Shown piece after piece: positions 1,496 to 26,513 of a stretch of DNA of 36,050 bases. Origin of the DNA: Saprospiraceae bacterium. GTDB lineage: Bacteria > Bacteroidota > Bacteroidia > Chitinophagales > Saprospiraceae. The notes below the pieces were generated by a model. That model made no database searches and was not told where the DNA came from. It saw only the letters and a list, made by a program, of their open reading frames with translations. Each line of letters starts with the position of its first letter. Within the stretch, counting starts at the first letter, position 1. The stretch lies in the NCBI GenBank assembly GCA_007125435.1, contig SLDF01000036.1:1-36050 (forward strand), read 5' to 3'. Position numbers and translations under genes: made by a program.

Positions 1496-4400
1496 ATGCG
1501 GGTCGAATCAATACAAAAATGTCTTACCCTGGTCTTTGTGTGTTTTTCTTTTTTGCTGGTTGCACAGAGAAACAATGTCAAAATAGAAAACTCTACTGAC
1601 GGTATCAGATTAAAAGTTGACGGAAAGTATTTCATGGTCAATGGTATGAATTGGGATTATTTTCCCATTGGTACCAATTACACCTATAGCTTATGGGACG
1701 AAACTGATCAATTTATTAAGCAAGCCCTTGACGATGAAATGGGACTCCTCCAAAATATGGGTGTTAATGCCATTAGAGTCTATACTGGGATTCCTCCGAA
1801 ATGGATAACTTATATTTATGAGACTTATGGCATATACACTATGCTCAATCATTCTTTTGGAAGATATGGTGTAGATCTCAGCGGCGTATGGATGGCTAAT
1901 ACTGAATACTCCGACGAGCGTGTCATTGAATTACTGATGCGCGAGACACAAGAACTAGCAAGCCAATATAAAGACACGCCAGGGCTATTATTATACCTAC
2001 TAGGTAATGAGAACAACTATGGTTTGTTTTGGGGTGGAGCCGAGACAGAAGATATACCTATCCAGGACAGAAAGTCTACACAGCGGGCTGAGTATATGTA
2101 TCAGTTGTTTAATCAGGCCGCTAAAGCCATGAAAGTCATAGATGATGCCCATCCGGTAGCGCTTTGTAATGGTGACCTTTTATTTATGGAGCTGATAGTG
2201 AAGTATTGTCCCGATGTGGATATTTTCGGAACAAACATGTATAGAGGACTTTCTTTTGGAGATGCATTTGAGAGGGTACAGAAAGAATATGGCAAGCCAA
2301 TTCTTTTTACAGAGTTTGGTGCAGATGCTTTTAATGTCATTACCAACCAGGAGGATCAAAAGGCGCAGGCCATGTTCATGACTTCCAATTGGGAAGAGAT
2401 ATACGCAAATGCAGCGGGGCTAGGCAAAGCAGGTAACTCCATAGGAGGATTTACCTTTCAGTTTAGCGATGGATGGTGGAAGTATGGACAGACTACTAAT
2501 CTGGATGTTCATGACACAAACGCATCTTGGGAAAATGGGGGGTACTTTGTCGACCATATACCTGGTGAGAATAATATGAATGAAGAATGGTTTGGAGTTT
2601 GTGCTAAGGGGCCTACAAATAGTAAAGGTTTTTATGCATTATATCCAAGAGCCGCATATTATTCTCTAAGAGAAGCTCATGCTTATGACCCTTATGGTCC
2701 TGAAGCCAGCATGTCCACATTGCAGGCACACTTTAATAATATACTATTAGCAGATGCAGAGCTAAGGGCTCGCGGAGACAGGGCAGCTCTTCTCGGCGAA
2801 CGAAGTAGTTTAATCAGCTTGAGTCGATTTACGGCTATTTTAAATACATTCAATACAGGAGGAAGCCTTATCTCTACGCCTCAAAGTCCAATACCGGGCA
2901 GTCAGACCTTCCCGGACCAGACAGGTTTTGATCATATGCAATCCTTTTTCTTTGGTATTGAAGCTAACCCTGCCCCGAATTTTAGAGCAAACGTAGACTT
3001 TAATGTCCTGGGGAATGTAGCAACCAACCCAATTGATCAAATATTCTATGAAAACAGAGGACGCCCTGTAGCCGTCAATACACCAAATGGACTAACTAAC
3101 CTAGAGTCCATTAACAGAGTGGCGGTCTACAGCGCCTCCTATGAATGGGATCATCGCATGTTCAAAATGAATGGCTTCTATCGTACAGGGCATTACCACT
3201 GGGGATATGAGGGTGATTTCTTTGGATTATATCCAGAAGCCAACTACGGACCACTGATGGACGTGTATAATGGTATAGCCCCTTTCGGCATGGAGATAGA
3301 AGGAAAAAGAGAATTGAATGGATTAAAGGTAGCTTTCGGACCACAGCTGTGGTGGGGAGCCAACCCTGCAGTACTTGTCAAATATTCAAAGGAAGTCGCC
3401 GGCACTAAAATTACAGGTATATTTCATGAAGACCTGGAGCAGCTTGGCTTGACAGAGAGTTCATTCGCCATACCTCAGCCGAAGACGAGAAGACTTACGC
3501 TCCACGCCAATAGAAAGTTTGGAAAATTAGGTGTTGATGTTGGTGGTATCTGGGGCGGTCAGCCTCTAGAGGGCAGAGCTTTTCAAGTCGTGAGAGGTGA
3601 GGGTAAAGATATGCAAGTCTTCCAGTCTACTATCAACCCCAATGATACCTGGGGTGGTAAAATGAAATTAACCTATCAAGGTGGCAAGTTTAATTGGTAT
3701 GCGCAATCTGCTGCTATGGGTCTTGCTGCGTCAGGTACAGGAGATCCCACTATCACTTTCACAGGATGGCGTCTTAAGGATAGTGGAAGTGGTAATCAAT
3801 ACAACTTCATGTCGGGTATGACATACCTCATTGGCAATCTACAGATAGCGCCTAACTTCCTTTGGCAGAGACCAATAGAGGGGCCTATTCCAGGAGATGC
3901 TCCAGCGCCAGCCAGACCTAGAAATATTCTTGACGATCCATTTGTCGTAAGATTAAATAGAGAGACTGTCGCCGGTGAGTTATTACTGACATATGACCCT
4001 ACACCGGGTACATACATGTATGACTGGGATAGTGATAGGACAGAAGATTCAAAGCTTGCTATCAGTGCAGGTGTGGTATTTAGACATCATCCAACAACAA
4101 TGGATGCAGCTATAGGTATCTTACCTGATGGTCGTACGACTTTCGCCTTCCCGGGTGCTGTTCCAGCTGCTGATTTGTGGGAGTTTCATGCCAGGGTCGT
4201 TTCAAAACTGACTAAAGAGTTTGGTATCATTACTAATATTTATGGTGGAGATGCCCAGGCTAATGGTAGTGATGAAAGACTTATTACTAGATTCGGAGCT
4301 GATGTCAGAATGATTTACAAGCGACTGAAGCTGTCCACATTTGTAAAGGTCAACGACTGGGGTCCTTACGATTATCATCGGGACTTTAACTTGACATTCC

Positions 4401-4642
4401 CTTTACAAATTATGGGTGATTTGTCATTTTCATCTGATAGACAGGATTGGTTTGATATGCCATCTACCAGAGTCGGTATGATGGTGACGTACAGGACGCT
4501 TGATCGATTTTCACCGAGATACCAGCCTACAACCTTCTTTGACGCTAATGGTAATTTAGAGCCCGATCCCAATGCCATAGGTTTTCCCAATGGTAATGAA
4601 TGGGAGATAAGAACATACGTTATAATTAATATCAGCAAATAA
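1496..4642 (+). CDS. GH-A-clan (GH2-like TIM barrel) glycosidase fused to a C-terminal predicted outer-membrane beta-barrel
   Basis: Signal peptide; TIM-barrel motifs (FMVNGMNWD, LLYLLGNENNYGLFW, ILFTEFGADAFN) in the first ~400 aa. The remaining ~600 aa alternate short amphipathic strands and Gly/Asn turns (e.g. LKVAFGPQLWWGANPAVLVKYSKEVAG) and end in a strand (WEIRTYVIINISK). Confidence 0.7.
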   Translation: MRVESIQKCLTLVFVCFSFLLVAQRNNVKIENSTDGIRLKVDGKYFMVNGMNWDYFPIGTNYTYSLWDETDQFIKQALDDEMGLLQNMGVNAIRVYTGIPPKWITYIYETYGIYTMLNHSFGRYGVDLSGVWMANTEYSDERVIELLMRETQELASQYKDTPGLLLYLLGNENNYGLFWGGAETEDIPIQDRKSTQRAEYMYQLFNQAAKAMKVIDDAHPVALCNGDLLFMELIVKYCPDVDIFGTNMYRGLSFGDAFERVQKEYGKPILFTEFGADAFNVITNQEDQKAQAMFMTSNWEEIYANAAGLGKAGNSIGGFTFQFSDGWWKYGQTTNLDVHDTNASWENGGYFVDHIPGENNMNEEWFGVCAKGPTNSKGFYALYPRAAYYSLREAHAYDPYGPEASMSTLQAHFNNILLADAELRARGDRAALLGERSSLISLSRFTAILNTFNTGGSLISTPQSPIPGSQTFPDQTGFDHMQSFFFGIEANPAPNFRANVDFNVLGNVATNPIDQIFYENRGRPVAVNTPNGLTNLESINRVAVYSASYEWDHRMFKMNGFYRTGHYHWGYEGDFFGLYPEANYGPLMDVYNGIAPFGMEIEGKRELNGLKVAFGPQLWWGANPAVLVKYSKEVAGTKITGIFHEDLEQLGLTESSFAIPQPKTRRLTLHANRKFGKLGVDVGGIWGGQPLEGRAFQVVRGEGKDMQVFQSTINPNDTWGGKMKLTYQGGKFNWYAQSAAMGLAASGTGDPTITFTGWRLKDSGSGNQYNFMSGMTYLIGNLQIAPNFLWQRPIEGPIPGDAPAPARPRNILDDPFVVRLNRETVAGELLLTYDPTPGTYMYDWDSDRTEDSKLAISAGVVFRHHPTTMDAAIGILPDGRTTFAFPGAVPAADLWEFHARVVSKLTKEFGIITNIYGGDAQANGSDERLITRFGADVRMIYKRLKLSTFVKVNDWGPYDYHRDFNLTFPLQIMGDLSFSSDRQDWFDMPSTRVGMMVTYRTLDRFSPRYQPTTFFDANGNLEPDPNAIGFPNGNEWEIRTYVIINISK

Positions 4643-4653
4643 AGCATACAACA

Positions 4654-6537
4654 ATGAAACTTACTTTTATAAAACGCAGTCTAGTAGCCATTTCAGCTTT
4701 TCTTCTCATTGTAAGTTGCAGTAGAGATATAGATGAACTAGAGCCGGCTCAATACCCTAATAATCCTAATGTTTTTATTGACGCCTTCAGTGCAGGTTTA
4801 AATTATGCTGCATTTAGCGGATCTGTACCGGCAGCTTTTCAGGTAGACACTGAGGTTACTATAGAAAACTCAGAAGCATCTATGCGATTTGAAGTACCTG
4901 ACGCTAATGACCCACGAGGTGCATATGCAGGAGGTGCTTTTTTTACTGAAATCGGCAGAAACCTCACAGAGTATGATGCCCTCACTTTTTGGATGAAAGC
5001 ATCCATGGCCTGTAATATTGATATCATTGGCTTTGGAAATGATCTGGGGGAGTCCCTGAACCAGGCATCAGTAAATGCAATTGCTGCCACGACCAATTGG
5101 AAAAAAGTTGTGATTCCGATTCCTAACCCAGAAGTGTTAACCCAAGAGAAAGGATTGTTGTTTTACTCCGCCGGACCGATAGATGGCAGAGGTTATACAT
5201 TTTGGCTTGATGATGTTAAGTTTGAAAAGTTAGGTACAATTGCTCATGGTAAAGCTACTATTTTGGATGGTGAGGATGTAACTCAAAGCCCAGGAGTCGG
5301 GTCAACAATACAAATAACGGGGTTGATTTCTACTTTTAATTTACCTACAGGTGTTAACAGGACACTTGATACAGGGCCGGGATACTTTACATTTACATCA
5401 TCTGATACATCAGTTGCTAGTGTTGATCAACGCGGTCTCGTTACAGTTAAAGATTTAGGTGAAGCTGTCATTACTGCCGAGTTGGGTTCTGTAGAAGTTG
5501 AAGGATCTTTAATTATTAGCTCCGATGGAATTCCTGGCGGACCTTCCACTGTGTCGCCAACACCTGCTTTTCCAGCAGATGCTGTCATTTCTATGTTTAG
5601 TAATGCTTATGAGAATGTTCCTATAGACACATGGAATACCAGATGGGAATTTTCTACAGCTGATGAGTTCTTTCTCAATATACAAGGTAGTGATGTCATT
5701 CGATATAGAAATCTAAACTTTGTGGGCATTGAATTTGCATCATCAACAATTGATGCCTCAGGAATGACAAATTTTCATATGAATTTGTTTACTCCTGAAA
5801 ATACAGATCCACCAGCTGCATTTAATATTCTACTGGTGGATTTTGGTCCTGATGGCGAATTTGGTGGTGGAGACGATAGCTCTCATGAAATTACCATAAC
5901 AAGCCCAACTCTTGCATCAGATGAATGGATAACTATAGATATACCATTGTCTGAATTTTCCGGATTGCAAAGTCGTGCTAATCTTGCACAGTTGGTGTTA
6001 TCCGGGGATTTATCGGATATTTATATAGATAATGTTTTATTCTATGATGATGGTAGTGGCTCTGGTGGTGGTGATCCGGAGACGCCAGATGCTGCAGCAC
6101 CAGCGCCAACTATCGATGCCAATCAAGTAAAATCTATTTTTAGCGATGCATATGATAATGTTCCGGGTACTGACTTTTTCCCTGATTGGGGACAGGCCAC
6201 AGTAGTAACTCAAGTCAATATTGGTGGTAGTAATACGCTCAGATATGGTAATCTAAATTATCAGGGTACACAGCTGGCCTCGAGCATAGATGTGTCTGAT
6301 ATGGATTTTTTACATCTTGATTTTTGGACAGCAAACTCTACGTCTTTAGAGGTGTCTTTGATTAGTCCGGGTCCTAATGAAACTCCATTTAGTCTAGTAG
6401 TACCGACGAGCGGATGGGTAAGTGTTGATATACCATTATCCGAATTTTCCGGTGTGGATATTGCAGATGTGTTCCAGTTTAAATTTGAAGGGAACGGAAA
6501 TGTATACCTAGACAACATATTTTTTCACAAACAGTAA
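4654..6537 (+). CDS. Lipoprotein with CBM-like jelly-roll domain, Big_2-like domain and two repeated CBM-like modules (probable surface glucan-binding protein)
   Basis: Lipobox ...LLIVSC|SRD; Ig-like segment (ITSSDTSVASVDQRGLVTVKDLGEAVITAEL); two modules starting VISMFSNAYENVP and VKSIFSDAYDNVP, each ending in YIDNVLFY/YLDNIFFH. Confidence 0.7.
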   Translation: MKLTFIKRSLVAISAFLLIVSCSRDIDELEPAQYPNNPNVFIDAFSAGLNYAAFSGSVPAAFQVDTEVTIENSEASMRFEVPDANDPRGAYAGGAFFTEIGRNLTEYDALTFWMKASMACNIDIIGFGNDLGESLNQASVNAIAATTNWKKVVIPIPNPEVLTQEKGLLFYSAGPIDGRGYTFWLDDVKFEKLGTIAHGKATILDGEDVTQSPGVGSTIQITGLISTFNLPTGVNRTLDTGPGYFTFTSSDTSVASVDQRGLVTVKDLGEAVITAELGSVEVEGSLIISSDGIPGGPSTVSPTPAFPADAVISMFSNAYENVPIDTWNTRWEFSTADEFFLNIQGSDVIRYRNLNFVGIEFASSTIDASGMTNFHMNLFTPENTDPPAAFNILLVDFGPDGEFGGGDDSSHEITITSPTLASDEWITIDIPLSEFSGLQSRANLAQLVLSGDLSDIYIDNVLFYDDGSGSGGGDPETPDAAAPAPTIDANQVKSIFSDAYDNVPGTDFFPDWGQATVVTQVNIGGSNTLRYGNLNYQGTQLASSIDVSDMDFLHLDFWTANSTSLEVSLISPGPNETPFSLVVPTSGWVSVDIPLSEFSGVDIADVFQFKFEGNGNVYLDNIFFHKQ

Positions 6538-6552
6538 TTAAATGTATTAAAC

Positions 6553-7395
6553 ATGAATACACGTAAATTAATCAATAGCACACCTTCAATCTTATTTATA
6601 TTGAGTCTCTTTATCTCATTAATGTCATGCGAAAGAGATACCGAGCAGAAGCTGGATCCAAGGGACTGGGAGTTGGTTTGGAGTGATGAGTTTGACGGTG
6701 AAGCCGGTGAATCACCAAACCCTGCCAATTGGGCGTTTGATATAGGAACAGGCGAAAATGGATGGGGAAACGAAGAGTTGCAATACTACACCGATAGACC
6801 TGAAAATGTTTCTATGGATGGTGAGGGCAACCTTGTTATAACAGTAAGGAGTGAAAGCTTCGGCGGTCAACCCTTCACATCGGCAAGGATAAAATCAGAG
6901 GGTCTTGTAGAGCAAGAGTTTGGTCGAGTGGAAGCAAGGCTGAAAACTCCATATGGTCCGGGACTTTGGCCAGCATTTTGGATGCTAGGAGCTAATTTTT
7001 CAGAAATAGGATGGCCTCAATGCGGAGAGATTGACATCATGGAATTAAGAGGACAAGAACCGGATATTATTCACGGTTCTGTGCATGGACCAGGCTATTC
7101 TGCAGGACAGGCTGTGACCAAAAAGTTTGTATTGGACAAGAGCCGATTTGATGCTGACTTCCATGTGTTTGCAATAGAGTGGTATGAAGACCAAATTGAC
7201 TTTTTTGTCGATGACTTTTTGTACCAAAGAATTACTAAAGATGATGTGCCCGGTGAATATGTCTTCAATCAGCCATTTTTTATCATTCTGAATGTTGCAA
7301 TTGGTGGAACATTCGTAGGTTTTCCCAATGCGCAAACAGTCTACCCACAAGAAATGGTGATTGACTATGTCCGTCTGTATAAGTTGGCAGATTGA
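6553..7395 (+). CDS. GH16 family beta-glucanase (laminarinase-like) lipoprotein
   Basis: Lipobox LMSC|ERD; GH16 active-site motif GEIDIMEL; ELVWSDEFDGE, WGNEELQYYT and WPAFWMLG motifs. Confidence 0.93.
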   Translation: MNTRKLINSTPSILFILSLFISLMSCERDTEQKLDPRDWELVWSDEFDGEAGESPNPANWAFDIGTGENGWGNEELQYYTDRPENVSMDGEGNLVITVRSESFGGQPFTSARIKSEGLVEQEFGRVEARLKTPYGPGLWPAFWMLGANFSEIGWPQCGEIDIMELRGQEPDIIHGSVHGPGYSAGQAVTKKFVLDKSRFDADFHVFAIEWYEDQIDFFVDDFLYQRITKDDVPGEYVFNQPFFIILNVAIGGTFVGFPNAQTVYPQEMVIDYVRLYKLAD

Positions 7396-7479
7396 TAACA
7401 ATTGTACAAAAGCTGCAATGAAGCTGTAGATGATGATTGTCACCAATTGATTAATAGGAAAATAAAATAGATCGTTAAT

Positions 7480-10400
7480 TTGAACAAGACTGTAACAGAT
7501 ACTAGAAATTCGTCTTTGGACATTGTAGAAATAGACAATGAGTTTTACATATGTATTTCCCATTGTGACGCTTTAAGGCCATTTTTTATGAGCATAGTAA
7601 GCCACTCTGACCATTGGATGTTTATTTCCAGCAATGGCGGTCTTACCGCAGGAAGAAGAAATGCAGATTTTGCTCTATTTCCTTACTATACTGATGATAA
7701 GATTACTGATATGGCCGAGCTTACCGGTAGTAAGACCATCGTCAAAGTAATAGGTGATGACAAGATGCAATATTGGGAGCCTATGTCAAATAGGCAAATA
7801 GGGCAATTCGACATAGAAAGGTGCCTTTACAAGAGCATATTTGGGAATAAGGTCATTTTTGAAGAGATCAACAACAGTCTTGGACTCATTTTTAAGTATA
7901 GATGGAGTACAAGTGAAAAGTTTGGTTTTGTGAGAGATGCTTCCTTACAGAACATATCAGGTAGCGTTTGTAATGTTGAGATTCTGGATGGACTTCAGAA
8001 CCTCTTGCCATATGGTGTAAATAGTGACCTTCAAAATGCCAGTAGTAATCTGGTGGATGCATATAAGCGTAATGAATGGCACCCTGAAACGGGGTTAGGC
8101 ATATTTGCCCTTAGTGCTATCATAGTAGATAAAGCAGAACCTAGTGAAGCCCTCAAAGCTAATATCGTCTGGTCTCTTGGTATCGAGCAAGGCACATATT
8201 TACTCTCCTCCCGACAGTTGGACGCATTTAGAAATAATGAGAAATTAATTGCTGAGTCAGATGTAAAAGGTGAAAAGGGTGCGTATTTTGTACATACATC
8301 CAACAGAATTGAAGCCAACCAAAACATGTTCTGGAGAATGGTGGCTGATGTCAATAAATCGCATAGCCAGATTACTGAAACAATACAAACCCTATCTGAA
8401 AAGGACGGCCTCTGGAAAGATATTGATGAAGATATATCCATAGGTACTAAAAGCTTAATGTCTTTGGTAAGGGCATCAGATGGTATGCAAAGAACAAGCG
8501 ATCGTCTAAGGGATATAAGGCACTATTCCAATGTCTTGTTCAACATAATGAGGGGTGGGATTTTTGATGATGGCTACCGAATAGAGAAGAAAGATTTCTT
8601 TAACTATCTGTCCAAAGCCAATAAAGCGCTTTTTGAAAAACACAGGCATGTTTTGAATCAATTGGAAAATACTTTTTATAGAGACCAATTGATGGAGGTA
8701 ATAACTCAAATTAGCGATAGTGACTTGAACAGGTTGTCCATAGAATATTTACCACTTAAATTCAGTAGAAGACATGGTGATCCAAGTAGGCCTTGGAATA
8801 GGTTTTCAATAAACCTAAAGGATGAAAGAGATGGCTCTAAAATTTTGGACTATGAAGGAAATTGGCGTGATATTTTTCAAAATTGGGAAGCCCTTTCATA
8901 CAGTTATCCGGCTTTTATAGAGTCGATGATATATAAGTTTCTCAATGCATCTACTTTTGATGGATACAATCCTTACCGCGTTACAAAAGACGGCTTCGAT
9001 TGGGAAACTATTGAACCTGATGACCCATGGTCGTATATTGGTTATTGGGGGGACCATCAAATCATCTACCTTCAAAAGTTTCTAGAGATATTAGAAAAGT
9101 TCTCCCCCGGAAAATTAAAAGAATTATTATCTAAGGAAGACTTCGTATATGCTGCTGTACCATATCGAATCAAAACCTATGATGACATTGTCAAAAATCC
9201 AAAAGACACCATTGACTTTGATGAGGCCTGGGATAAGTCTATAAGAAAAAGAAGAGATCAGAAAGGGGCAGATGGAGCTCTTTTGACCGATAGCAATGAA
9301 CTGATATATCATGTGAATTTTATTGAAAAGATATTGGCAACTGTCCTGGCTAAACTCATCAATTTTATTCCAGAAGGCGGTATATGGATGAATACACAAA
9401 GGCCGGAATGGAATGACGCTAACAATGCGCTAGTGGGCAATGGTGTTTCAATGGTCACATTGTACTATTTGAGAAGAATGCTTTCATTTTTTACGCATGT
9501 TATTAACAGTACTGATATTGAGAATACGCAGATTTCTAATGAGATGGTTGAGCTCTATCACTCAGTTAGAAACGTATTCGAAGACAATAAAAGCCTGCTT
9601 GATCAGAAAGAAATCAGTGACAATAAGAGAAAGGAAATTGTCGATGCTTTAGGCAAAGCCGGCTCTGATTATCGAATGCACATTTACAACTCAGGGTTCT
9701 GGGGTAAGAAACGTACCATATCAAAAGAAGGCCTTCAGCGCTTTTTTAACTTAAGTCTTAAGTTTTTGGAGCACACTATTAAAAAAGGGAAAAGAAGTGA
9801 TGGCCTTTATCATACATATAACTTAATGACTTACTCGAAAGGTGGCATAAGCCTCACCTACCTGGATGAAATGCTTGAGGGTCAAGTGGCTGTATTAAGT
9901 TCAGCTTATCTGAGGCCTGAAGAGGCTTTGAAAGTTATGGATGCTCTGAAGTCCAGCGCACTTTTTAGACCTGATCAGTACAGTTACCTTCTATATCCAG
10001 AAAAAGAACTACCGGGCTTTCTGCACAAAAACATAATCGGCAAGGAAGATGCAAATTCTTCAGAGCTGATACAAAAACTGCTAAAGGATAATAACACAGA
10101 AGTCATTGAGAAAAGCATAAATGGAAATTACCATTTCAATGGCAACTTCAAAAATGCCAATGACCTCAAGGTGGCATTAGATCAACTGTCACAAAATGGA
10201 TACGAAGCACTGGTTAAAAAAGAGGGAGAAAGCATACTTGAAATATTTGAGAAAGTATTTAATCACAAGGCCTTTACAGGTAGGTCAGGTACATTCTTTG
10301 CTTATGAGGGTCTTGGTTCGATTTATTGGCACATGGTTTCCAAACTGCTATTAGCCATTCAGGAATGTTGCCTTGATGGCATTAATAAAAGAGTAGATAC

Positions 10401-10926
10401 CAAAGTGACAGGTAGAATGCTCGATCACTACTACGAGGCTCAGGCGGGAATTGGTGTACACAAATCACCCGAATTATATGGTGCATTCCCAACGGATCCG
10501 TATTCCCATACACCTAAACATAAAGGTGCTCAGCAACCCGGAATGACCGGACAAGTCAAAGAAGATATTCTTTCTCGACAAATAGAGTTGGGTATAATCA
10601 TTCAAGATGGGTGCCTCGGGTTTAATCCTGTCTTGCTGAGAAAAGAAGAGTTTCAAGATGAAGCTGTAAAGGTAAGCTTCACAACAGTTAATAAGTCACA
10701 AGAGGCCATTGAGCTATTAAATGGCCAACTCATGTTTAGTGTTTGTCAGGTGCCTGTAGTATACAGCCTATCTGACCAAGAGAGGATACGCGTCATTTTT
10801 ACTGATGGAACTGTAAAAGAAATCGAAGGTAATACAATGGACAATAGGACGAGTAGAGAGATATTTAGTAGATCAGGAATGGTCAAACAAGTCAAAGTAG
10901 ATGTAAATCAAGAAATATTGAAATAA
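7480..10926 (+). CDS. Cytoplasmic glycoside phosphorylase, probable GH149-type beta-1,3-glucan phosphorylase (GH94-related)
   Basis: 1148 aa, no signal peptide, TTG start. 'SSNGGLTAGRRNADFALFPYYTDDKI' N-terminal motif and 'GSIYWHMVSKLLLAIQE ... HKSPELYGAFPTDPYSHTPKHKGAQQPGMTGQVKEDIL' as in GH94-like phosphorylases. Lies in a glucan operon. Confidence 0.75.
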   Translation: MNKTVTDTRNSSLDIVEIDNEFYICISHCDALRPFFMSIVSHSDHWMFISSNGGLTAGRRNADFALFPYYTDDKITDMAELTGSKTIVKVIGDDKMQYWEPMSNRQIGQFDIERCLYKSIFGNKVIFEEINNSLGLIFKYRWSTSEKFGFVRDASLQNISGSVCNVEILDGLQNLLPYGVNSDLQNASSNLVDAYKRNEWHPETGLGIFALSAIIVDKAEPSEALKANIVWSLGIEQGTYLLSSRQLDAFRNNEKLIAESDVKGEKGAYFVHTSNRIEANQNMFWRMVADVNKSHSQITETIQTLSEKDGLWKDIDEDISIGTKSLMSLVRASDGMQRTSDRLRDIRHYSNVLFNIMRGGIFDDGYRIEKKDFFNYLSKANKALFEKHRHVLNQLENTFYRDQLMEVITQISDSDLNRLSIEYLPLKFSRRHGDPSRPWNRFSINLKDERDGSKILDYEGNWRDIFQNWEALSYSYPAFIESMIYKFLNASTFDGYNPYRVTKDGFDWETIEPDDPWSYIGYWGDHQIIYLQKFLEILEKFSPGKLKELLSKEDFVYAAVPYRIKTYDDIVKNPKDTIDFDEAWDKSIRKRRDQKGADGALLTDSNELIYHVNFIEKILATVLAKLINFIPEGGIWMNTQRPEWNDANNALVGNGVSMVTLYYLRRMLSFFTHVINSTDIENTQISNEMVELYHSVRNVFEDNKSLLDQKEISDNKRKEIVDALGKAGSDYRMHIYNSGFWGKKRTISKEGLQRFFNLSLKFLEHTIKKGKRSDGLYHTYNLMTYSKGGISLTYLDEMLEGQVAVLSSAYLRPEEALKVMDALKSSALFRPDQYSYLLYPEKELPGFLHKNIIGKEDANSSELIQKLLKDNNTEVIEKSINGNYHFNGNFKNANDLKVALDQLSQNGYEALVKKEGESILEIFEKVFNHKAFTGRSGTFFAYEGLGSIYWHMVSKLLLAIQECCLDGINKRVDTKVTGRMLDHYYEAQAGIGVHKSPELYGAFPTDPYSHTPKHKGAQQPGMTGQVKEDILSRQIELGIIIQDGCLGFNPVLLRKEEFQDEAVKVSFTTVNKSQEAIELLNGQLMFSVCQVPVVYSLSDQERIRVIFTDGTVKEIEGNTMDNRTSREIFSRSGMVKQVKVDVNQEILK

Positions 10927-12239
10927 TGAGACATGGTAAGTATCAGATTAGACATAGTCAAGGGTCATTTGACCTGATACGATTATTTGCTTTGTCAATA
11001 TTATCAATTATCATTTTGTCATGTAATTCTATGGAAAAAGAAAAAAAAGAAATTATAACAGCGGCTGAAATCCTGGGTAATCCAGATTATCAAGCCATAT
11101 CATATGGTGGGTATAGGCACAAGACTAGAGATATCCAGCCTACAATAGAAGAGCTCAAAGAAGATCTTAAAATCTTGCATGCCATGGGCATCAGGATCCT
11201 AAGGACATATAATGTTCATCTGGAGGAAGCCTCAAATCTGCTAAAAAGTATCAGAGCCTTAAAAGAAGAGGATAATACATTTGAAATGTACATCATGCTT
11301 GGAGCCTGGATAGATTGTAAGAATGCCTGGACACACTTGCCCCTTGATCACAATGCTGAGAGTGAAGATAATGCTATCGAAATCAATAGAGCGGTAGAGC
11401 TTGCCAATACTTATGATGATATTGTCAAGGTTATTGCAGTAGGTAATGAAGCTATGGTGAAATGGGCCACTAGCTACTATGTACAACCTTGGGTCATACT
11501 GAAATGGGTAAATCACTTACAGGGCTTAAAGTCAGAAGGTGAGCTTCCCTCAGACATTTGGATTACCAGCTCTGACAATTTTGCCTCATGGGGCGGTGGA
11601 GATGCTGAATATCATGTTGATGATTTGAACGAACTCATCAAAGCCGTAGACTTCTTATCTGTACATACCTATCCCATGCACGATACGCACTATAACCCAC
11701 AGTTCTGGGGAGTCCATCCTACAGAAAAGGATCTCGAAAAAGAGGAGATCATAAACAGAGCGATGGTCAGGTCAAGAGATTATGCAATAGAGCAGTACAA
11801 TAGTGTCATTGCATATATGAAGTCTATTGGAGAAAATAAACCTGTACATATTGGCGAGACGGGCTGGGCTACACATTCGAGTGGATACTATGGCCATAAT
11901 GGATCAAAAGCAACCGATGAGTACAAGTCAGCACTTTATCACCAGCTTATGAGAGAGTGGTCAAATGAAAACAATGTCAGTTGCTTTTACTTCGAAGCAT
12001 TCGATGAGCAGTGGAAGGATAGTGCAAACCCAAAAGGTTCCGAAAATCACTTTGGTCTGATCAATCTAAAGTCTCAAGTAAAATACGCCCTTTGGGATCT
12101 TGTGGATAAAGGTATTTTCGATGGTCTGACAAGAGACGGACAACCTATCACAAAGACATTCGGTGGAGACACTTCTCTCCTGATGCAAACTGTGGAGATG
12201 CCTCCAATTGTAGAACACTTACAAATAGTAGAAAAATGA
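10926..12239 (+). CDS. GH17-like beta-1,3-glucanase/transglycosylase lipoprotein
   Basis: Lipobox IIILSC|NS; conserved VGNEAM (acid/base) and HIGETGWAT (nucleophile) motifs. Start overlaps the upstream stop (TAATG). Confidence 0.85.
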   Translation: MRHGKYQIRHSQGSFDLIRLFALSILSIIILSCNSMEKEKKEIITAAEILGNPDYQAISYGGYRHKTRDIQPTIEELKEDLKILHAMGIRILRTYNVHLEEASNLLKSIRALKEEDNTFEMYIMLGAWIDCKNAWTHLPLDHNAESEDNAIEINRAVELANTYDDIVKVIAVGNEAMVKWATSYYVQPWVILKWVNHLQGLKSEGELPSDIWITSSDNFASWGGGDAEYHVDDLNELIKAVDFLSVHTYPMHDTHYNPQFWGVHPTEKDLEKEEIINRAMVRSRDYAIEQYNSVIAYMKSIGENKPVHIGETGWATHSSGYYGHNGSKATDEYKSALYHQLMREWSNENNVSCFYFEAFDEQWKDSANPKGSENHFGLINLKSQVKYALWDLVDKGIFDGLTRDGQPITKTFGGDTSLLMQTVEMPPIVEHLQIVEK

Positions 12240-13732
12240 AAAAGATGGCATACAAGTCTGTGATATTTACTTTGGCATGTACTTTAATGCTGGTCACGTC
12301 TTGTCAAGAGGAACATGAGATGAATATTAAAGCATTTGAAACATCGTCTTCAGGGAAAAAATTTGAAGCAATAGATATGGGCATCGAAGGTGATGCTGAC
12401 GTTAATATTGTCATCAATAGAGAAGATGAGCACCAGGAAATAACAGGGTTTGGGGGATCATTTACAGAGGCCTCAGCATATTTGCTCAATCAGCTAAGTG
12501 ATGAAAACCGTCAAAAAATCATCAATGCATACTTTAGTGATGATGGTGCCAGGTATTCTCTGACAAGGACACATATTAATTCCTGCGACTTTTCTCTAGG
12601 ACAATATTCATATGCCCCGGTAGAGGGTGATACCGCTCTTGAGCATTTCAGCATAGAGGAGGATATGGATGATATCATACCGATGATTAAATCAGCAAGT
12701 GAAGTATCGAGTGAGGGGTTTAAGATTATTTCCTCTCCATGGACAGCACCACCCTGGATGAAGGATAATAACAGCTGGGTAGGTGGTAAGCTTTTAAAGG
12801 AACACTACCCAACATGGGCGCTGTTTTTTAAAAAGTATGTTGATGCCTATGCAGACCAAGGAATCAAGATTTGGGGGGTTACCGTCGAGAACGAGCCATT
12901 GGGCAACGACAATAACTGGGAGAGTATGCATTACACTCCGGAGGAAATGAATGATTTCGTAAAGAACCATCTTGGACCACTGTTCAGAGAGCACGAACTA
13001 AATGTAAAAATCATGGGCTACGATCAAAACCGAGATGAAGAGCTGTATCACTGGGTAGATATAATGTATGGTGATGAAGAAGCAGCTGAATACTACGATG
13101 GCACGGCCATTCATTGGTACGCCAGCACGTTTGATTATTTTCCGGAAGCGCTCAAGTATGCGCATGAGGCTGCACCAGATAAGCACCTCATTCAGACAGA
13201 AGCCTGCATAGATGCACAAGTGCCGGTATGGCAAGATGATGATTGGTATTGGTCAAAAGAAGCTACAGACTGGGGCTACAATTGGGCTCCTGAAGAGAGA
13301 AAGCATTTTCATCCAAAGTATGTACCAGCCTTTCGCTATGCGCGTGATATCATTGGCTGTCTCAATAATCATGTCGATGGATGGGTGGATTGGAATATGG
13401 TATTGGATCGTCAAGGCGGACCAAACTGGTTTGAAAACTGGTGCATTGCCCCTGTAATTGTAGACCCTGATCAAGACGAGGTCTATTTTACACCACTTTA
13501 TTATGTCATGAAGCATTTCAGTAAATACATCAGACCGGGAGCAAAGAGAATTGGGTTTGATATCGATAGTGATAGCATTATGTGCACAGCTGCTTTGAAT
13601 CCTGATGGCACCATTGCTGTCGTTTTATTCAATGAAAATAAAGAAAAAGTCAATGTAATTATAAAGGTTGGGGATGCTGAGAATCAAGTCATATTAAATG
13701 GCGAAGCCATACAAACTATAGTTTTTAATTAA
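12236..13732 (+). CDS. GH30 family glycosidase lipoprotein (likely beta-1,6-glucan active)
   Basis: Lipobox LVTSC|QEE; GFGGSFTEASAYLL, SSPWTAPPWMK, GVTVENEPL and LIQTEACI motifs. ATGA overlap with the preceding gene. Confidence 0.9.
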   Translation: MKKMAYKSVIFTLACTLMLVTSCQEEHEMNIKAFETSSSGKKFEAIDMGIEGDADVNIVINREDEHQEITGFGGSFTEASAYLLNQLSDENRQKIINAYFSDDGARYSLTRTHINSCDFSLGQYSYAPVEGDTALEHFSIEEDMDDIIPMIKSASEVSSEGFKIISSPWTAPPWMKDNNSWVGGKLLKEHYPTWALFFKKYVDAYADQGIKIWGVTVENEPLGNDNNWESMHYTPEEMNDFVKNHLGPLFREHELNVKIMGYDQNRDEELYHWVDIMYGDEEAAEYYDGTAIHWYASTFDYFPEALKYAHEAAPDKHLIQTEACIDAQVPVWQDDDWYWSKEATDWGYNWAPEERKHFHPKYVPAFRYARDIIGCLNNHVDGWVDWNMVLDRQGGPNWFENWCIAPVIVDPDQDEVYFTPLYYVMKHFSKYIRPGAKRIGFDIDSDSIMCTAALNPDGTIAVVLFNENKEKVNVIIKVGDAENQVILNGEAIQTIVFN

Positions 13733-13748
13733 ATCAATAAGGTTAGAC

Positions 13749-16169
13749 ATGGAGCAGAAAGCACTCACGAATCAAGTACCATGGGCACAAAAAATAGCCT
13801 TTGGTTTAGGTATGTTGGCCAACCAAATGTTCCCGGCAGCACTTGGTATTTTTATGGTAGTGCTGGTGCAGGACCTTGGGTTTCCGGGTTGGATGTGGGG
13901 TATTTTGTTTTTCCTGCCGCGTGTTTTTGACTCTATCACTGATCCAATTATGGGCTTTATCTCAGATAATACTAAATCAATCTGGGGGAGGCGACGACAG
14001 TACGTATTTATTGGCGCTATTATTATGGGGGTTGCCTTTATCGTCATGTGGCAGCTCTATCGAGAAAACGGTGTGAATTATAACTTTACCTATTTTTTGT
14101 TGTGGTCAATTGTGTTTTATCTAGGTCTGACTGTATTTAGTGTGCCATATGTAGCCATGGGATATGAGATGAGTGAGGACTTTCACGAGCGTACAGATAT
14201 TATGGCAGTGGCACAGTGGATCGGCCAGTGGGCATGGGTGATAGCGCCCTGGCTTTGGGTGGTAATGTATGATCCGGATTGGTTTCCTAATGCAGATACG
14301 GCGACGCGGACACTAGCCGTATGGGTGGGTGGAGTATGTATGTTATTAGCAATGGTACCTGCTATTTTCATAAAGAGTGAATCAACAGCAGATCGTAAAG
14401 ATCTTGCACCACTTAATTTTAAATCAATAGGCAAGAGTTTTGTTAATATTCTGAAAAGCTTTAAAGAAGCTTTTCAGTCTGTACCATTTAGGAAGCTTTG
14501 TGTATCTACCTTTTTGATTTTCAATGCTTTTAACACCATCGCAAGTTTTTCTTTTTTTATTGTAGTCTACTACTTATTTAATGGTGATGCTGCTGCTGCG
14601 GGTGTATGGCCTACGCTTTTTGGTAGTCTAGGGGCATTGGTAACCACGTTTTTGGTCATTCCTATTGTGGCTAGAATGTCTAAGGTGATGGGCAAGAAGC
14701 AAGCCTTTATATTGTCGCAGTCGATATCTATAGTGGGTTATATTCTGCTATGGTTTTTATTTGTCCCCGGCAAACCATACATGTTTATTTTTGCTTTGCC
14801 TTTTTTCTCATTCGGTATAGGTAGTTTGTTTACACTTATGATGTCAATGACAGCAGATGTATGCGATCTGGATGAGCTTCAATATGGAAAAAGGAGAGAG
14901 GGTATTTTTGGTGCCATTTACTGGTGGATGGTTAAGTTTGGTTTTGCTATAGCAGGATTACTTAGTGGAGCTATTATTTCGCTAGTGGGATTTAATCCTA
15001 CAGCTGAGGTTCAGACAGAGGGTGCTGTGACCGGTCTAAGAATTTTTTATTCAGGTCTGCCAATACTCGGAACACTGATAGCCATACTGGTCATGCGCAA
15101 TTATGATCTGACTGAAGAAAAGTCAAATGAAATAAGAAGACAATTGAATGAACGCAAGAGGCCAAAACCATCCGGTTATACAGGTGGTAACGTCTTAGGC
15201 GACCTGGATGTATCTCAATTATCAAAAGAAGGCCTTCTTGCTAAGTTTCCATACTACTTGCCTTCGCCACTTGACCCCACATTGTTGGATAGAAAGCCAT
15301 TGGGCAAATTATTTGCTGAAACTTTTGATGAGCAAATGCACGGTATATGCTTCAGTGCCTATCGCAAAGGTCAGTCTCCCGGAGATGAGGTAACTGAAGA
15401 TCAAATCCGTAAACGATTAGAAGTATTAAAGCCTCATACGAAGTGGATAAGAACATTCTCCTGTACACATGGAAACGAGAAAATCCCTGTCATAGCTAAA
15501 GAAATGGGCATGAAAACCCTCGTGGGTGCATGGATTAATGAGGATATAGAGCAAAATGAAGAGGAGATTGAGAGCTTAATAAGATTAATGAATGAAGGCT
15601 ATGTCGATATGGCAGCAGTCGGTAATGAGGTTTTATTCAGAAGAGAGTTGGTGCCGGAGCAAATCATACAATACATCCGAAGAATTAAAGACAATACAAA
15701 AGATATACCCGTGGGCTATGTCGATGTATACTACGAGTTTTTTGATAAGCCTGAATTAGTGGATGCTTGCGATGTCTTATTCATAAATGGCTACCCATTC
15801 TGGGAAGGCGTAAGTATAGAACATGCGAGCTTATACTTACAGGTGATGTACCAAAAAGTGGTAGACATAGCAATGGGCAAAAAGGTCATCATTGCTGAAA
15901 CAGGATGGCCATCGAAAGGACAAATGGTGAAGGCTGCTGTACCATCTACTGAAAATGTAAGACGGTATTTTATTGATGTAAGTCACTGGGCTAAGTCAAA
16001 GAAAGTAGACTTCTTCTACTTTGCCTCATTCGATGAATTGTGGAAGATTCACTTCGAAGGGTGGGCAGGTTCATCATGGGGACTATGGGATGTCAACGAA
16101 CAATTTAAATATGAATACGACGAACGTATTCAAGAGGATGGAGCAATCGAAAAGATTGAGGACGCATGA
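13749..16169 (+). CDS. GPH-family MFS sugar transporter fused to a C-terminal cytoplasmic GH17-like domain
   Basis: N-terminal ~455 aa polytopic with GPH motifs (PRVFDSITDPIMGFISDNTKSIWGRRRQY, PYVAMGYEMSEDFHERTD). Linker, then GH17-like domain (from ~15310) with AAVGNEVLFR and VIIAETGWPSKGQ. Continuous in one frame. Confidence 0.9.
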   Translation: MEQKALTNQVPWAQKIAFGLGMLANQMFPAALGIFMVVLVQDLGFPGWMWGILFFLPRVFDSITDPIMGFISDNTKSIWGRRRQYVFIGAIIMGVAFIVMWQLYRENGVNYNFTYFLLWSIVFYLGLTVFSVPYVAMGYEMSEDFHERTDIMAVAQWIGQWAWVIAPWLWVVMYDPDWFPNADTATRTLAVWVGGVCMLLAMVPAIFIKSESTADRKDLAPLNFKSIGKSFVNILKSFKEAFQSVPFRKLCVSTFLIFNAFNTIASFSFFIVVYYLFNGDAAAAGVWPTLFGSLGALVTTFLVIPIVARMSKVMGKKQAFILSQSISIVGYILLWFLFVPGKPYMFIFALPFFSFGIGSLFTLMMSMTADVCDLDELQYGKRREGIFGAIYWWMVKFGFAIAGLLSGAIISLVGFNPTAEVQTEGAVTGLRIFYSGLPILGTLIAILVMRNYDLTEEKSNEIRRQLNERKRPKPSGYTGGNVLGDLDVSQLSKEGLLAKFPYYLPSPLDPTLLDRKPLGKLFAETFDEQMHGICFSAYRKGQSPGDEVTEDQIRKRLEVLKPHTKWIRTFSCTHGNEKIPVIAKEMGMKTLVGAWINEDIEQNEEEIESLIRLMNEGYVDMAAVGNEVLFRRELVPEQIIQYIRRIKDNTKDIPVGYVDVYYEFFDKPELVDACDVLFINGYPFWEGVSIEHASLYLQVMYQKVVDIAMGKKVIIAETGWPSKGQMVKAAVPSTENVRRYFIDVSHWAKSKKVDFFYFASFDELWKIHFEGWAGSSWGLWDVNEQFKYEYDERIQEDGAIEKIEDA

Positions 16170-16246
16170 AGCGATATGTTTTGTTAGTGCCTAGATCACA
16201 TGTGGTCAGCTAGAATTTATGCATAATTAGGGTTAAATACTCTAAA

Positions 16247-16371
16247 GCATCAGCGATGTGTAGTGGGTCACGAGCGTATGCGAGTGAGTCCGAAGGACCG
16301 AGCGAATAGCGAGCCCCGAAACGTAGCGACCCCATCCCTACCTAATTCATTAGGGAGGGATGGGGTGATGC
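16247..16371 (+). repeat. Structured dispersed repeat (family R1), copy 2, inside the operon
   Basis: GCATCAGCGATGTGTAG...GAGCGAATAGCGAGCCCCGAAACGTAGCGA + 17-bp hairpin with one mismatch (16330-16346/16349-16365) + TGATGC. Flanks match copy 1. Confidence 0.8.
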
Positions 16372-16413
16372 CCAAATAAAAAATAATTATTAGCCATTTA
16401 AAAAATTGAAATA

Positions 16414-17334
16414 GTGTCATACAGGTCAGAACAGTTTTTAAAGTATAAGCCAAATAGTGAGGCATTGAAGTCAATGCTGGCTCAGGATCTATCGGAGGAT
16501 GATATAAGAGACTTGTTTTTGGAGGTGCTGAATAGCGGATTGCATGGTCTATGTTTTAGTCTCTATGAGGAAGGTCAAAAACCTGGTGATTATATATCTG
16601 AGGCACAGATCAGACGAAGGCTGAGAATACTGAAACCTTACACGCAATGGGTCAGGTCTTTCTCCACGACAGAGAGCAATGATATGATACCAAAAATAGC
16701 TAAGGAATTTGGTATGAAGACAATGGTAGGCGCATGGATAGGGTATGAGGCTGACAAAAATGAGGAAGAGATAGAGGGACTTATAAAACTGGCCCATGAT
16801 GGATATGTGGATATTGCAGCCGTAGGAAATGAAGTCCTGTACAGGGGAGACTTGTCCAAGGAGGAATTGATACAAAAGATAAACCATGTCAAATCCAAAG
16901 TGACCCATATTCCTGTGGGCTATGTAGATGCATATTATGAGTTTGTGAGGCATCCTGACCTGGTCGAAGTGTGTGATGTGATTCTTAGTAACTGCTATCC
17001 GTTCTGGGAGGGTAGCTCATGTGAGGATGCTCTGGGTCACGCCAGACACATGTATCACCAGTGCAAGCAAGTCGCACAGGGCAAAAAGGTCATCATCACC
17101 GAAACGGGCTGGCCATCGCAAGGTGAGTCTCTCGGTCATGCTTACCCCGGCAATATAAATGCGATGAAGTACTTTATCAATACCCAACTGTGGTCAGCTG
17201 ATGAGGATATAGAGATGTTTTATTTTTCGTCATTTGATGAAGATTGGAAAGTTGGAGCTGAGGGTGAAGTAGGCGCATACTGGGGGATCTGGGACAAAAA
17301 AGAGATACTGAAATATATTAAAAAAGCACAATAG
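16414..17334 (+). CDS. Stand-alone GH17-like protein, no signal peptide; paralogue of the transporter-fused GH17-like domain
   Basis: GTG start; AAVGNEVLYR and VIITETGWPSQGE. Collinear and highly similar to the C-terminal half of 13749-16169. Confidence 0.85.
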   Translation: MSYRSEQFLKYKPNSEALKSMLAQDLSEDDIRDLFLEVLNSGLHGLCFSLYEEGQKPGDYISEAQIRRRLRILKPYTQWVRSFSTTESNDMIPKIAKEFGMKTMVGAWIGYEADKNEEEIEGLIKLAHDGYVDIAAVGNEVLYRGDLSKEELIQKINHVKSKVTHIPVGYVDAYYEFVRHPDLVEVCDVILSNCYPFWEGSSCEDALGHARHMYHQCKQVAQGKKVIITETGWPSQGESLGHAYPGNINAMKYFINTQLWSADEDIEMFYFSSFDEDWKVGAEGEVGAYWGIWDKKEILKYIKKAQ

Positions 17335-17392
17335 ACTTTGTCTATTTTTATATAGTTATGTTTATATTTATTGAAATTCTAAAATATTAGTT

Positions 17393-18727
17393 ATGAAAAT
17401 TTTTACAATTACACTAACGGTGATTTTATTCTCGATCACCTTAAATGCACAAAATGGGCCGATAGATTTTGAGCCAGATGGTTTTGGTGCCGACTGGACC
17501 TGGACTGTGTTTGAGAATGACGACAACCCGCCTCTCGAAATCATAGAGAATCCCGATAAATCGGGTATAAATACTTCTGATTTCGTTGCGCAGTTTACAG
17601 CTACTCAAGATGGTCAGCCGTTTGCGGGCGTTGAGTCTCTCAGAGGTGGCCCTGATTTGGGTCCATTTGTATTAGATGCCACAAACTCAACGATAAGGAT
17701 CATGGTATGGAAGTCTGTCATTAGTGATGTGGGTATTAAGTTAGCCTCTCCAACAGGTTGGTCTCAAGGTGAAATAAAAGTAGCCAATACGAAAGTAAAT
17801 GAGTGGGAAGAGTTGACCTTTGATTTTTCTGGTTTTATTAATCCACCTGATGCTGAAGGCCAATTAGACCACATCGTTGTTTTTCCTGATTTTAATGACA
17901 GAGGTCAGGATAATGTAGTCTTTTTTGACAATATCACTTTTGGTGAGCCGGATGGTGGTGGTGATGAAGATGAACCGGCAACCGCGGCTCCAACTCCTCA
18001 AGAGGACCCATCTAGTGTCATCTCACTATTTAGTGATGCTTATGATAATGTGCCTGTTGATACATGGCGTACTGATTGGTCAGCGGGAAATCTACAAGAT
18101 ATAGAGATAAACGGGAACCCGACAAAGCTATATACGAATGTTGACTTTATAGGCATAGAGACTGTAGCCAATCAAATTGATATCACTGGAATGACCAACT
18201 TTCGAATCGATATCTGGTCGCCCAATCATACTTTTTTCGGCGTGAAGCTGGTAGACTTTGGGCCTTCTGGCGAATTTGGTGGGGGTGATGACACAGAGCA
18301 TCAGATAGATTTCGTCGACGTAGCTCAAGGTGAATGGATCAGTATCGACATACCTTTGAGCGAATTTGAAGGGTTAATGAATAGAGAGAACATTGCTCAA
18401 TTCATATTGGTTGGTCAACCAACTGGTGAGACCACGCTCTATGTAGACAATGTTTATTTTTATGATGCTACTTCTGTAAACACAAACATAGTCGACTTAG
18501 AGGAAGATATGATAGAGTTATTTCCCAATCCTGTGCTTTCAGGATCTGAGGTCAATCTAAGCGAATCAGTAAAAGAGATGACCATTGTTGACTTTAGCGG
18601 TAGAGTCATTGATAGAGCGTTGAATACTTCTATCATACAGACCAACAGATTGAGACCGGGGGCATACTTTCTTCAGGTCATTACCGATGATAATAAACGA
18701 CAAGTTTTAAAACTATTGGTACAGTAA
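17393..18727 (+). CDS. Secreted CBM-like protein with T9SS type A C-terminal sorting domain
   Basis: Signal peptide; module 'VISLFSDAYDNVPVDTWRTDW...TTLYVDNVYFYDA' homologous to modules in 4654-6537; C-terminal ELFPNPVLSGSEVNL...LRPGAYFLQV..KLLVQ. Confidence 0.8.
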   Translation: MKIFTITLTVILFSITLNAQNGPIDFEPDGFGADWTWTVFENDDNPPLEIIENPDKSGINTSDFVAQFTATQDGQPFAGVESLRGGPDLGPFVLDATNSTIRIMVWKSVISDVGIKLASPTGWSQGEIKVANTKVNEWEELTFDFSGFINPPDAEGQLDHIVVFPDFNDRGQDNVVFFDNITFGEPDGGGDEDEPATAAPTPQEDPSSVISLFSDAYDNVPVDTWRTDWSAGNLQDIEINGNPTKLYTNVDFIGIETVANQIDITGMTNFRIDIWSPNHTFFGVKLVDFGPSGEFGGGDDTEHQIDFVDVAQGEWISIDIPLSEFEGLMNRENIAQFILVGQPTGETTLYVDNVYFYDATSVNTNIVDLEEDMIELFPNPVLSGSEVNLSESVKEMTIVDFSGRVIDRALNTSIIQTNRLRPGAYFLQVITDDNKRQVLKLLVQ

Positions 18728-18743
18728 ATAAATTAGTGTTTAT

Positions 18744-18775
18744 GAGAGCTGCCTTCGGGCGGCTCTCTTTTTACT
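18744..18775 (+). terminator. Intrinsic terminator at end of glucan operon
   Basis: GAGAGCTGCC-ttcg-GGCGGCTCTC followed by TTTTT, directly after the stop of 17393-18727. Confidence 0.9.
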
Positions 18776-23705: not shown

Positions 23706-25022
23706 TTAAAATATAAAACCCATACCTAGTTCAAATCGATCGCCTTCGGTTTCTCCCGATGGTAGCAATGCTGAGTTGATCCTGAACTGGTAATTGGCTT
23801 TGATGACTATACTTCGCTTGGGGTTGAAATTCAGACCTACAGTGATGGCGGTGAGATCGGAGAGGAAGATATCTTCATCTACAAGCTCTGGACTGATGGT
23901 GCGATGTGTATTTAGCCTTTCATATCTGACAAAAACAGGGAGCTTGACTTCCTTAGGGTTATAAAGTCGACTTTTGGCTTTTGACTTTATGTCTTTGCTG
24001 CGTCTGCCACGAATGAGAGGGAGGATATCATAGCCGACCTCTGCATAGTAGCCATAGACGTTCTCTCCAAGAACTTGCCCTTCTCTTTCTGTCCTTTGTT
24101 CGATGAGAGCATGTAGGTTTTCTGTATCCTGAATATAGCCCAGTGAGCCAAGGGTCATAAATGTCCAATTGCCTAATGTGTATCTCCAATATGAGCTCAT
24201 TAAGTATGTATGTGAATTAGCTTTGACTTGCTGTCCATCACGTATGATGCTGGCATTGTCACCAAGTCGTGTCCAGACGCCATTAAACCCTAGTTCTGTA
24301 TCTTTCAGCCCGGTGTAAGTCAGACTGGGGTTAACAATTAGGCTATTGAAGTTAAATCTCAGAACATTTTCACGTCCACCCCTGAGCCAGGTGCCACCAT
24401 TGAGCGCCAGAGGGTCAAGTCCCTGATAGAAAGAAAATGTCCATTTGAGATGCTCTGTAAGGTTACCGTAATTCATGATACCCAGATCTATCCACTGAGA
24501 AGGGATGATGATGCGCTCTACCTCGGGTCTGTTGACAGAGTAAAATAAAATAGGCTCATCATTGTTATTGATATAACCTGTCTGTACCTGGTGTGTACCA
24601 ATGCGCACATTGTAGTAGTCACTGATCAAGAAATCTACAAATACCTCAGGTAGATACTCTAAGTGCCACTCTCTATTGCCGTCATTGGCCAGCTCAGCAA
24701 AAATCTCGGCATATAATACCATCCAGTTCATTGGCTTATAGGCGGCATAAGCTACAAAGCGCTGGAGATTGGTATTGTATAGCTCGACATCCTGCGAACG
24801 AGTATCTTTGGGTCCGAGATAGTTGATGTAGCTTGTCTCACCAAACCCTGAAATAGTAAACTTACTGTCGCTAAAGTATATTTTAGAAGCTGCTACTGGC
24901 AGACCTGCCTGAGTCTCATAAGTCAGCGTATCTACTATTTTTGACTTTTCTTGAGCACATATATTAAAAGGTCGTAACAGCGCTACTAAAGAAAACAGTG
25001 TAATAAATTGAATATGTCTCAT
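23706..25022 (-). CDS. Outer-membrane porin-like protein
   Basis: Likely start at internal Met (MRHIQFITLFSLVALLRPFNICAQ signal peptide); beta-strand-rich; FELGMGFIF C-terminus with terminal Phe. Confidence 0.7.
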   Translation of the reverse strand: MRHIQFITLFSLVALLRPFNICAQEKSKIVDTLTYETQAGLPVAASKIYFSDSKFTISGFGETSYINYLGPKDTRSQDVELYNTNLQRFVAYAAYKPMNWMVLYAEIFAELANDGNREWHLEYLPEVFVDFLISDYYNVRIGTHQVQTGYINNNDEPILFYSVNRPEVERIIIPSQWIDLGIMNYGNLTEHLKWTFSFYQGLDPLALNGGTWLRGGRENVLRFNFNSLIVNPSLTYTGLKDTELGFNGVWTRLGDNASIIRDGQQVKANSHTYLMSSYWRYTLGNWTFMTLGSLGYIQDTENLHALIEQRTEREGQVLGENVYGYYAEVGYDILPLIRGRRSKDIKSKAKSRLYNPKEVKLPVFVRYERLNTHRTISPELVDEDIFLSDLTAITVGLNFNPKRSIVIKANYQFRINSALLPSGETEGDRFELGMGFIF

Positions 25023-25099
25023 CCTTTTGCACTTCTTAATTAAAGTGCAAATGAATATCATTAGAACTTAAAATTTACTTAATAGTGATAAAAAGGCTC

Positions 25100-26467: not shown

Positions 26468-26513
26468 TTCACCTGTGCTTAGTCTATCTTTTTTGTATGC
26501 TTTGACTGGAGCA

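Follow-up and report, generated by a model that had tools for sequence, protein, structure and literature searches.

Gene content and layout of the operon

The window analysed here is the complete contig C69, 36,050 bases long, from an assembly of 429 contigs. ORF listing placed nine genes at positions 1496–18727, all on the plus strand. As originally predicted, these are tightly spaced and followed by an intrinsic terminator: most joints are overlaps or gaps of 11–16 bp (4642/4654, 6537/6553, 10926/10926, 12239/12236 and 13732/13749), with wider gaps ahead of the GH149 gene (84 bp), ORF8 (244 bp) and ORF9 (58 bp). The predicted terminator is a strong one (18744–18767, plus strand): it ranked first in the terminator scan and consists of a 10-pair stem with seven G–C pairs, followed by TTTTT. 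The non-coding leader (1–1495) comprises degenerate repeats up to position ~840, with three copies of ~122 nt and a 19-nt motif, GTTTACGCTTCGCTGTTTA; from there on, it forms the region upstream of the operon. These repeats probably caused the assembly break at the start of the contig. As base 1 of the window is the contig end (G000:C69:1) and lies inside the repeats, this genome provides no sequence for the 20 kb upstream.

Family-model searches upheld the domains assigned in the original prediction, namely GH16, GH149, GH17, GH30, the MFS–GH17 fusion and the T9SS tail. ORF1 (1496–4642) encodes a 1048-residue GH–barrel fusion, with a weak match to a TIM-barrel glycoside hydrolase family (PF02836) and ~600 unannotated C-terminal residues. 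It is followed by ORF2 (4654–6537), a 627-residue lipoprotein with a single Big_2 domain and, at its C-terminus, a repeated β-rich module shared with ORF9, which we propose to be a surface glycan-binding protein, and by ORF3 (6553–7395), a GH16 lipoprotein (PF00722, E 2e-25) proposed to act as a surface endo-laminarinase. ORF4 (7480–10926, TTG start) lacks a signal peptide and is a GH149 β-1,3-glucan phosphorylase, scoring 1744 bits against NF058639, above the NCBIfam equivalog cut-off of 1150, and 1563 bits against PDB 6hq6. ORF5 (10926–12239) is a GH17 lipoprotein by PF00332 and its N-terminus, and was assigned a proposed role as periplasmic endo-β-1,3-glucanase. The GH30 lipoprotein ORF6 (12236–13732; PF02055, E 4e-76) scored 254 bits against the model for BT3312-type endo-1,6-β-glucanases, under that model's cut-off of 700; a role in β-1,6 debranching is proposed. 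ORF7 (13749–16169) combines an MFS carrier (GPH-type symporter, MFS_2; PF13347, E 7e-66) with a C-terminal GH17 domain (PF00332, E 3e-10) in a single reading frame, i.e. a Formosa-type MFS–GH17 fusion. ORF8 (16414–17334, GTG start) is a leaderless cytosolic GH17 (PF00332, E 1e-12). Finally, ORF9 (17393–18727) is secreted and carries a T9SS tail (TIGR04183) along with ORF2-like repeats; its N-terminal part matched PDB 8qx6, a "PKD domain-containing protein", with an E-value of 1.5e-8. Of note, the repeats common to ORF2 and ORF9 span ~170–190 residues (FSDAYDNVP...DNV.FY), have no Pfam match and are present in more copies in the lipoproteins of other loci, which reach ~1400 residues. They possibly represent an undescribed β-glucan-binding module.

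ORF and domain searches of positions 1–36050 found no SusC or SusD, as the original prediction had stated. The locus has the linked single-glycan hydrolases, transporter and regulator of a canonical polysaccharide utilization locus (PUL) and lacks the susC–susD pair within these 36 kb, which are bounded upstream by the contig end. The putative regulator, ORF10 (18810–21506, plus strand; 898 residues), displayed a sub-threshold Y_Y_Y match and a C-terminal LuxR-type DNA-binding domain. Similar genes lie beside many of the fused loci described below, and ORF10 likely regulates the operon. Further downstream (23706–27197, minus strand), a 451-residue protein without a Pfam match resembles an outer-membrane protein and adjoins a histidine kinase and response regulator pair.

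Catalytic domain of ORF1

ORF1 comprises a signal peptide, a TIM-barrel (residues ~28–404), a helical linker (406–436) and a β-barrel (440–1047). The best PDB folds for the catalytic domain were GH158, with laminaritetraose soaked into one of the entries, and GH157 in complex with laminaribiose. These endo-β-1,3-glucanases (PDB 9p26, 9oro and 9g5g) are the nearest solved folds and share 12–15% identity with the ORF1 enzyme in the Foldseek alignment; unlike ORF1, they were solved as soluble proteins devoid of a barrel. Comparison with GH158(Pro) yielded E-values of 2.4e-4 by sequence, 0.0023 by profile and 1.6e-13 by fold. The two catalytic glutamates expected of a clan GH-A TIM-barrel, E172 within an NE motif and E273, were invariant in 77 of 77 proteins, and were likewise retained in genomes free of SusD. 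A search of the viral fold library contributed nothing further.

Fold and topology of the ORF1 barrel

The C-terminal ~600 residues gave no credible sequence match in Pfam or the PDB, i.e. none beyond chance. The AlphaFold model of full-length ORF1 (mean pLDDT 79) showed a C-terminal β-barrel of ~24 strands, which was obtained again when this part was modelled alone (pLDDT 76, pTM 0.72). All of the top 50 PDB folds retrieved with the isolated barrel were outer-membrane barrels, among them BtuB, FepA, PfeA, OprC, MOMP, MtrB and LptD, with TM scores that did not exceed 0.41 for any solved barrel. Because model confidence is moderate, the number of strands is an approximation. In these models, ORF1 has the attributes of an outer-membrane β-barrel: it is closed and even-stranded, with distinct long- and short-loop sides, and is preceded by a signal peptide. 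A Pfam search revealed no TonB plug domain (PF07715), the N-terminus being occupied by the hydrolase, so that by this criterion ORF1 is not a TonB-dependent receptor.

Odd-numbered strands are followed by long loops (mean 23) and even-numbered ones by short turns (mean 5) in both models (p 1.3e-4), in which the enzyme with the N-terminus and the C-terminus of the barrel both lie on the short-turn side. In outer-membrane barrels, the short-turn side faces the periplasm. The N-termini of unfused relatives of the enzyme, judged by eye, are plain signal peptides or lipoboxes with no obvious surface-export motif. On the basis of the modelled loop asymmetry and these N-termini, a periplasmic location is therefore the better guess for the fused enzyme.

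The order of an N-terminal enzyme, a helix and a C-terminal barrel is also that of type V autotransporters, and the barrel might accordingly serve purely for anchoring, or act like an autotransporter and display the hydrolase at the surface, with uptake through SusC/SusD or TonB receptors encoded elsewhere. Classical autotransporter barrels have 12 strands. ORF1, in contrast, has ~24 and returned no autotransporter match in Pfam, including the type Va domain (PF03797), and the periplasmic appearance of the unfused relatives likewise speaks against surface display. In addition, conservation of the long-side loops roughly matches that of the catalytic domain, which would be unexpected for an anchor: four of these loops (563–596, 616–624, 741–767 and 955–967) are 90–95% conserved, and three (563–596, 616–624 and 955–967) are nearly letter-identical across distant genomes. 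This conservation favours a substrate path over an anchor and points to these loops as its constituents. We regard anchoring or export as unlikely, at roughly one chance in four, and a role of the barrel in glucan passage as the better reading.

Distribution and conserved neighbourhood

A scan of named genomes retrieved 80 fusion loci from Bacteroidales, Flavobacteriales, Cytophagales, Chitinophagales/Saprospirales and Balneolales; neighbour counts were limited to loci whose contig reaches far enough. An ORF2-type lipoprotein lies directly 3' of the fusion in 74/74 loci, and a GH16 within three genes in 66/66. The originally predicted family set of marine Bacteroidota agrees with the published laminarin gene set. 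The term "marine" covers only part of the range, as the fusion is also present in several records of Flavobacterium, Chryseobacterium and Cloacibacterium, among them the cultured F. agri, F. aquatile and C. rupense.

For the phylum sample, 396 Bacteroidota genomes were drawn evenly. The fusion was found in 33 of them (~8%) and the unfused enzyme in nine, with one further locus representing a broken gene. GH149 occurred in 70 of the 396 genomes, including all 33 with the fusion (p = 6e-29). A barrel profile run against the same sample detected no intact free-standing barrel that could be the source of the fusion, and the matches outside fusions were pieces only: one broken gene, one contig-end fragment and one 55-residue remnant.

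These neighbourhoods bear on a second alternative, according to which the operon is an ordinary laminarin PUL with ORF1 as an accessory enzyme, and SusC/SusD is encoded just past the contig end or supplied in trans from contig C59. The contig does end in repeats only 1.5 kb upstream of ORF1, C59 encodes SusC, SusD and two GH16 enzymes, and SusC/SusD adjoins the ORF1 homologue in six fused loci (L087, L134, L154, L160, L161 and L174). Against this, SusD was absent near the fusion from 54 of the 56 named loci with at least 8 kb of upstream sequence (present in 2/56), and SusC/SusD from 25 of the 29 sampled fused loci with enough of it (present in 4/29); relatives with an ORF1 up to 70% identical also lack the pair in the corresponding upstream position. 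Together with the three genomes described in the following section, which carry the fusion and in which searches for four SusD Pfam families found nothing, these counts make this alternative improbable, clearly more so than the anchor. It follows from the six exceptions that the barrel is not always a substitute.

A clean swap, in which unfused loci have SusC/SusD and fused ones do not, was considered and weakened in the wider sample (SusD in 4/29 fused versus 2/6 unfused loci, counting those with sufficient upstream sequence). The count for unfused loci became 4/9 once relatives were added, a contrast that is suggestive only, and as some unfused loci also lack SusC/SusD, the exchange is not one-for-one. 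The unfused enzyme had been expected to be the ancestral form. The tree, whose root is not fixed, nests unfused among fused proteins with at least four well-supported changes, so that the barrel has more simply, and likely, been lost several times. Some of the nested unfused loci carry SusC/SusD.

SusD at the genome level

The host genome has SusC/SusD pairs elsewhere, on contigs C59 (SusC, SusD and two GH16) and C62 (GH3, SusC and SusD), and it is therefore the operon rather than the organism that lacks them. The former pair belongs to a second β-glucan-type locus (2613–12479 of G000:C59:16778–36777), which encodes a CBM/T9SS protein, SusC, SusD, a lipoprotein and the two GH16 enzymes, with a divergent Y_Y_Y regulator beside it.

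Three genomes with the fusion (G109, G124 and G313; 99–100% complete) had no match to the SusD Pfam families PF07980, PF14322, PF12771 and PF12741. An initial set of four or five such genomes was reduced to these by two additional SusD models. In all three, the genes for the fused barrel, lipoproteins, GH16, MFS, GH17 and GH149 form a single run, which includes GH30 in two cases. Each genome has 16–37 TonB receptors, which are unlinked and could take part in uptake. Their presence in all three genomes, and that of the SusC/SusD–GH16 locus in the host, is compatible with the barrel as an anchor, whereas the lack of any TonB receptor within the clusters themselves runs counter to it. The architecture independent of SusC/SusD put forward in the original prediction is supported by the operon itself, by a fusion conserved across the phylum and by these three genomes, and does not extend to the six fused loci that have both.

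Relation to known systems

The gene set of the operon is shared by the laminarin PULs of marine Flavobacteriia, which include the GH149-GH0-GH30_1-GH17-MFS "variant 1", Formosa PUL 2 and Kappelmann variant B (PMC10108472, PMC6246565, PMC6298971). Like the operon, they combine GH149, GH16, GH17, GH30_1 and MFS–GH17 under a logic leading from the surface through the periplasm to the cytosol. In contrast to canonical laminarin PULs, which have SusC/SusD, the operon is headed by the fused GH–barrel and has no linked pair. One NS4 metagenome-assembled genome without susCD was noted earlier, with no outer-membrane replacement described in the excerpts of that report (PMC10108472). Some Bacteroidetes GH149 clusters were similarly reported to lack susCD when the family was founded, and the corresponding excerpts propose no outer-membrane alternative (PMC5827456). 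The MFS–GH17 fusion was described in Formosa (FORMB_24740), with the architecture of ORF7, and found to be common (PMC6246565; see also PMC10108472).

Two of the novelties claimed in the original prediction are therefore not new, namely the MFS–GH17 fusion and the susCD-less GH149 cluster. Its strongest point, the GH–barrel as an alternative to SusC/SusD, gained weight from genome comparison: the fusion occupies the SusC/SusD position and is conserved across the phylum, with transport itself as the inferred element. The new part is ORF1, in which a GH158/GH157-like catalytic domain is joined to a predicted outer-membrane barrel of ~24 strands. It repeats the enzyme–transporter idea of FORMB_24740 at the outer membrane, with a barrel and a GH158/157-like enzyme instead of an MFS carrier and GH17. 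No description of such a fusion was found in the open-access literature. A parallel is the cellulose cluster chu_1276–1280 of Cytophaga hutchinsonii, for which the SusC/SusD homologues are not required, and which relies on an outer-membrane protein with a predicted β-barrel, an SGBP-B-like lipoprotein and an endoglucanase (PMC12016534). It differs in its substrate and in having barrel and endoglucanase as separate genes.

Proposed mechanism

Sequence, structure prediction and genome comparison provided the gene families, the fusion, the barrel fold, the intact catalytic residues and the conserved gene order, as well as the lack of a linked SusC/SusD pair and the occurrence in SusD-free genomes. 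From these, we infer, and consider rather probable, that this is an operon for β-1,3(1,6)-glucan of the laminarin type, induced by its substrate, in which ORF1 would perform the outer-membrane step in place of SusC/SusD. ORF1 is proposed to be an outer-membrane glucan channel with a tethered endo-β-1,3-glucanase. The ORF2 lipoprotein and ORF9 would capture glucan at the surface, where GH16 (ORF3) would cut it and GH30 (ORF6) would strip β-1,6 branches. Oligosaccharides would then enter via the ORF1 barrel along a sugar path formed by the conserved long-side loops, and be cut at its periplasmic mouth by the fused GH158/157-like enzyme, alongside the GH17 lipoprotein (ORF5). The products would be carried over the inner membrane by ORF7, with its GH17 domain in the cytoplasm, and their breakdown would be completed in the cytosol by the GH17 enzyme ORF8 and by GH149, the latter yielding glucose 1-phosphate. 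On this view, the channel or carrier of each membrane has a glucanase attached on its far side, an arrangement that would keep the gradient steep.

In more general terms, ORF1 may represent a previously undescribed class of outer-membrane glycan importer of Bacteroidota, a proposal that we hold with about even confidence. It would consist of a plug-less ~24-strand barrel with a covalently attached periplasmic endo-β-1,3-glucanase, forming an uptake complex independent of SusC/SusD with one conserved surface lipoprotein and GH16, and mirrored by MFS–GH17 at the inner membrane. The SusC/SusD pair is regarded as the signature of Bacteroidota glycan uptake, and PULs are identified and counted by it in metagenomes. 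If the proposal is correct, a second outer-membrane route for glycans exists in this phylum and surveys based on SusC/SusD undercount laminarin use.

Additional loci

In the clusters of the SusD-free genomes G109, G124 and G313 (L206–L211), an extra gene of ~415–423 residues separates the lipoprotein from GH16; the lipoprotein itself is larger or present in duplicate. Two copies of the fusion (L008, G009:C604; L009, G053:C84) are truncated at contig ends and have one internal stop codon each; the truncations likely reflect assembly ends rather than real breaks. Finally, 28 of the 70 GH149 loci of the phylum sample (L176–L203) lack any close relative of the ORF1 enzyme. Among these, L177 alone has SusC/SusD in the stretch examined. 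Several of the 28 have large unannotated ORFs of ~1000–1200 residues nearby, which could be other outer-membrane proteins.
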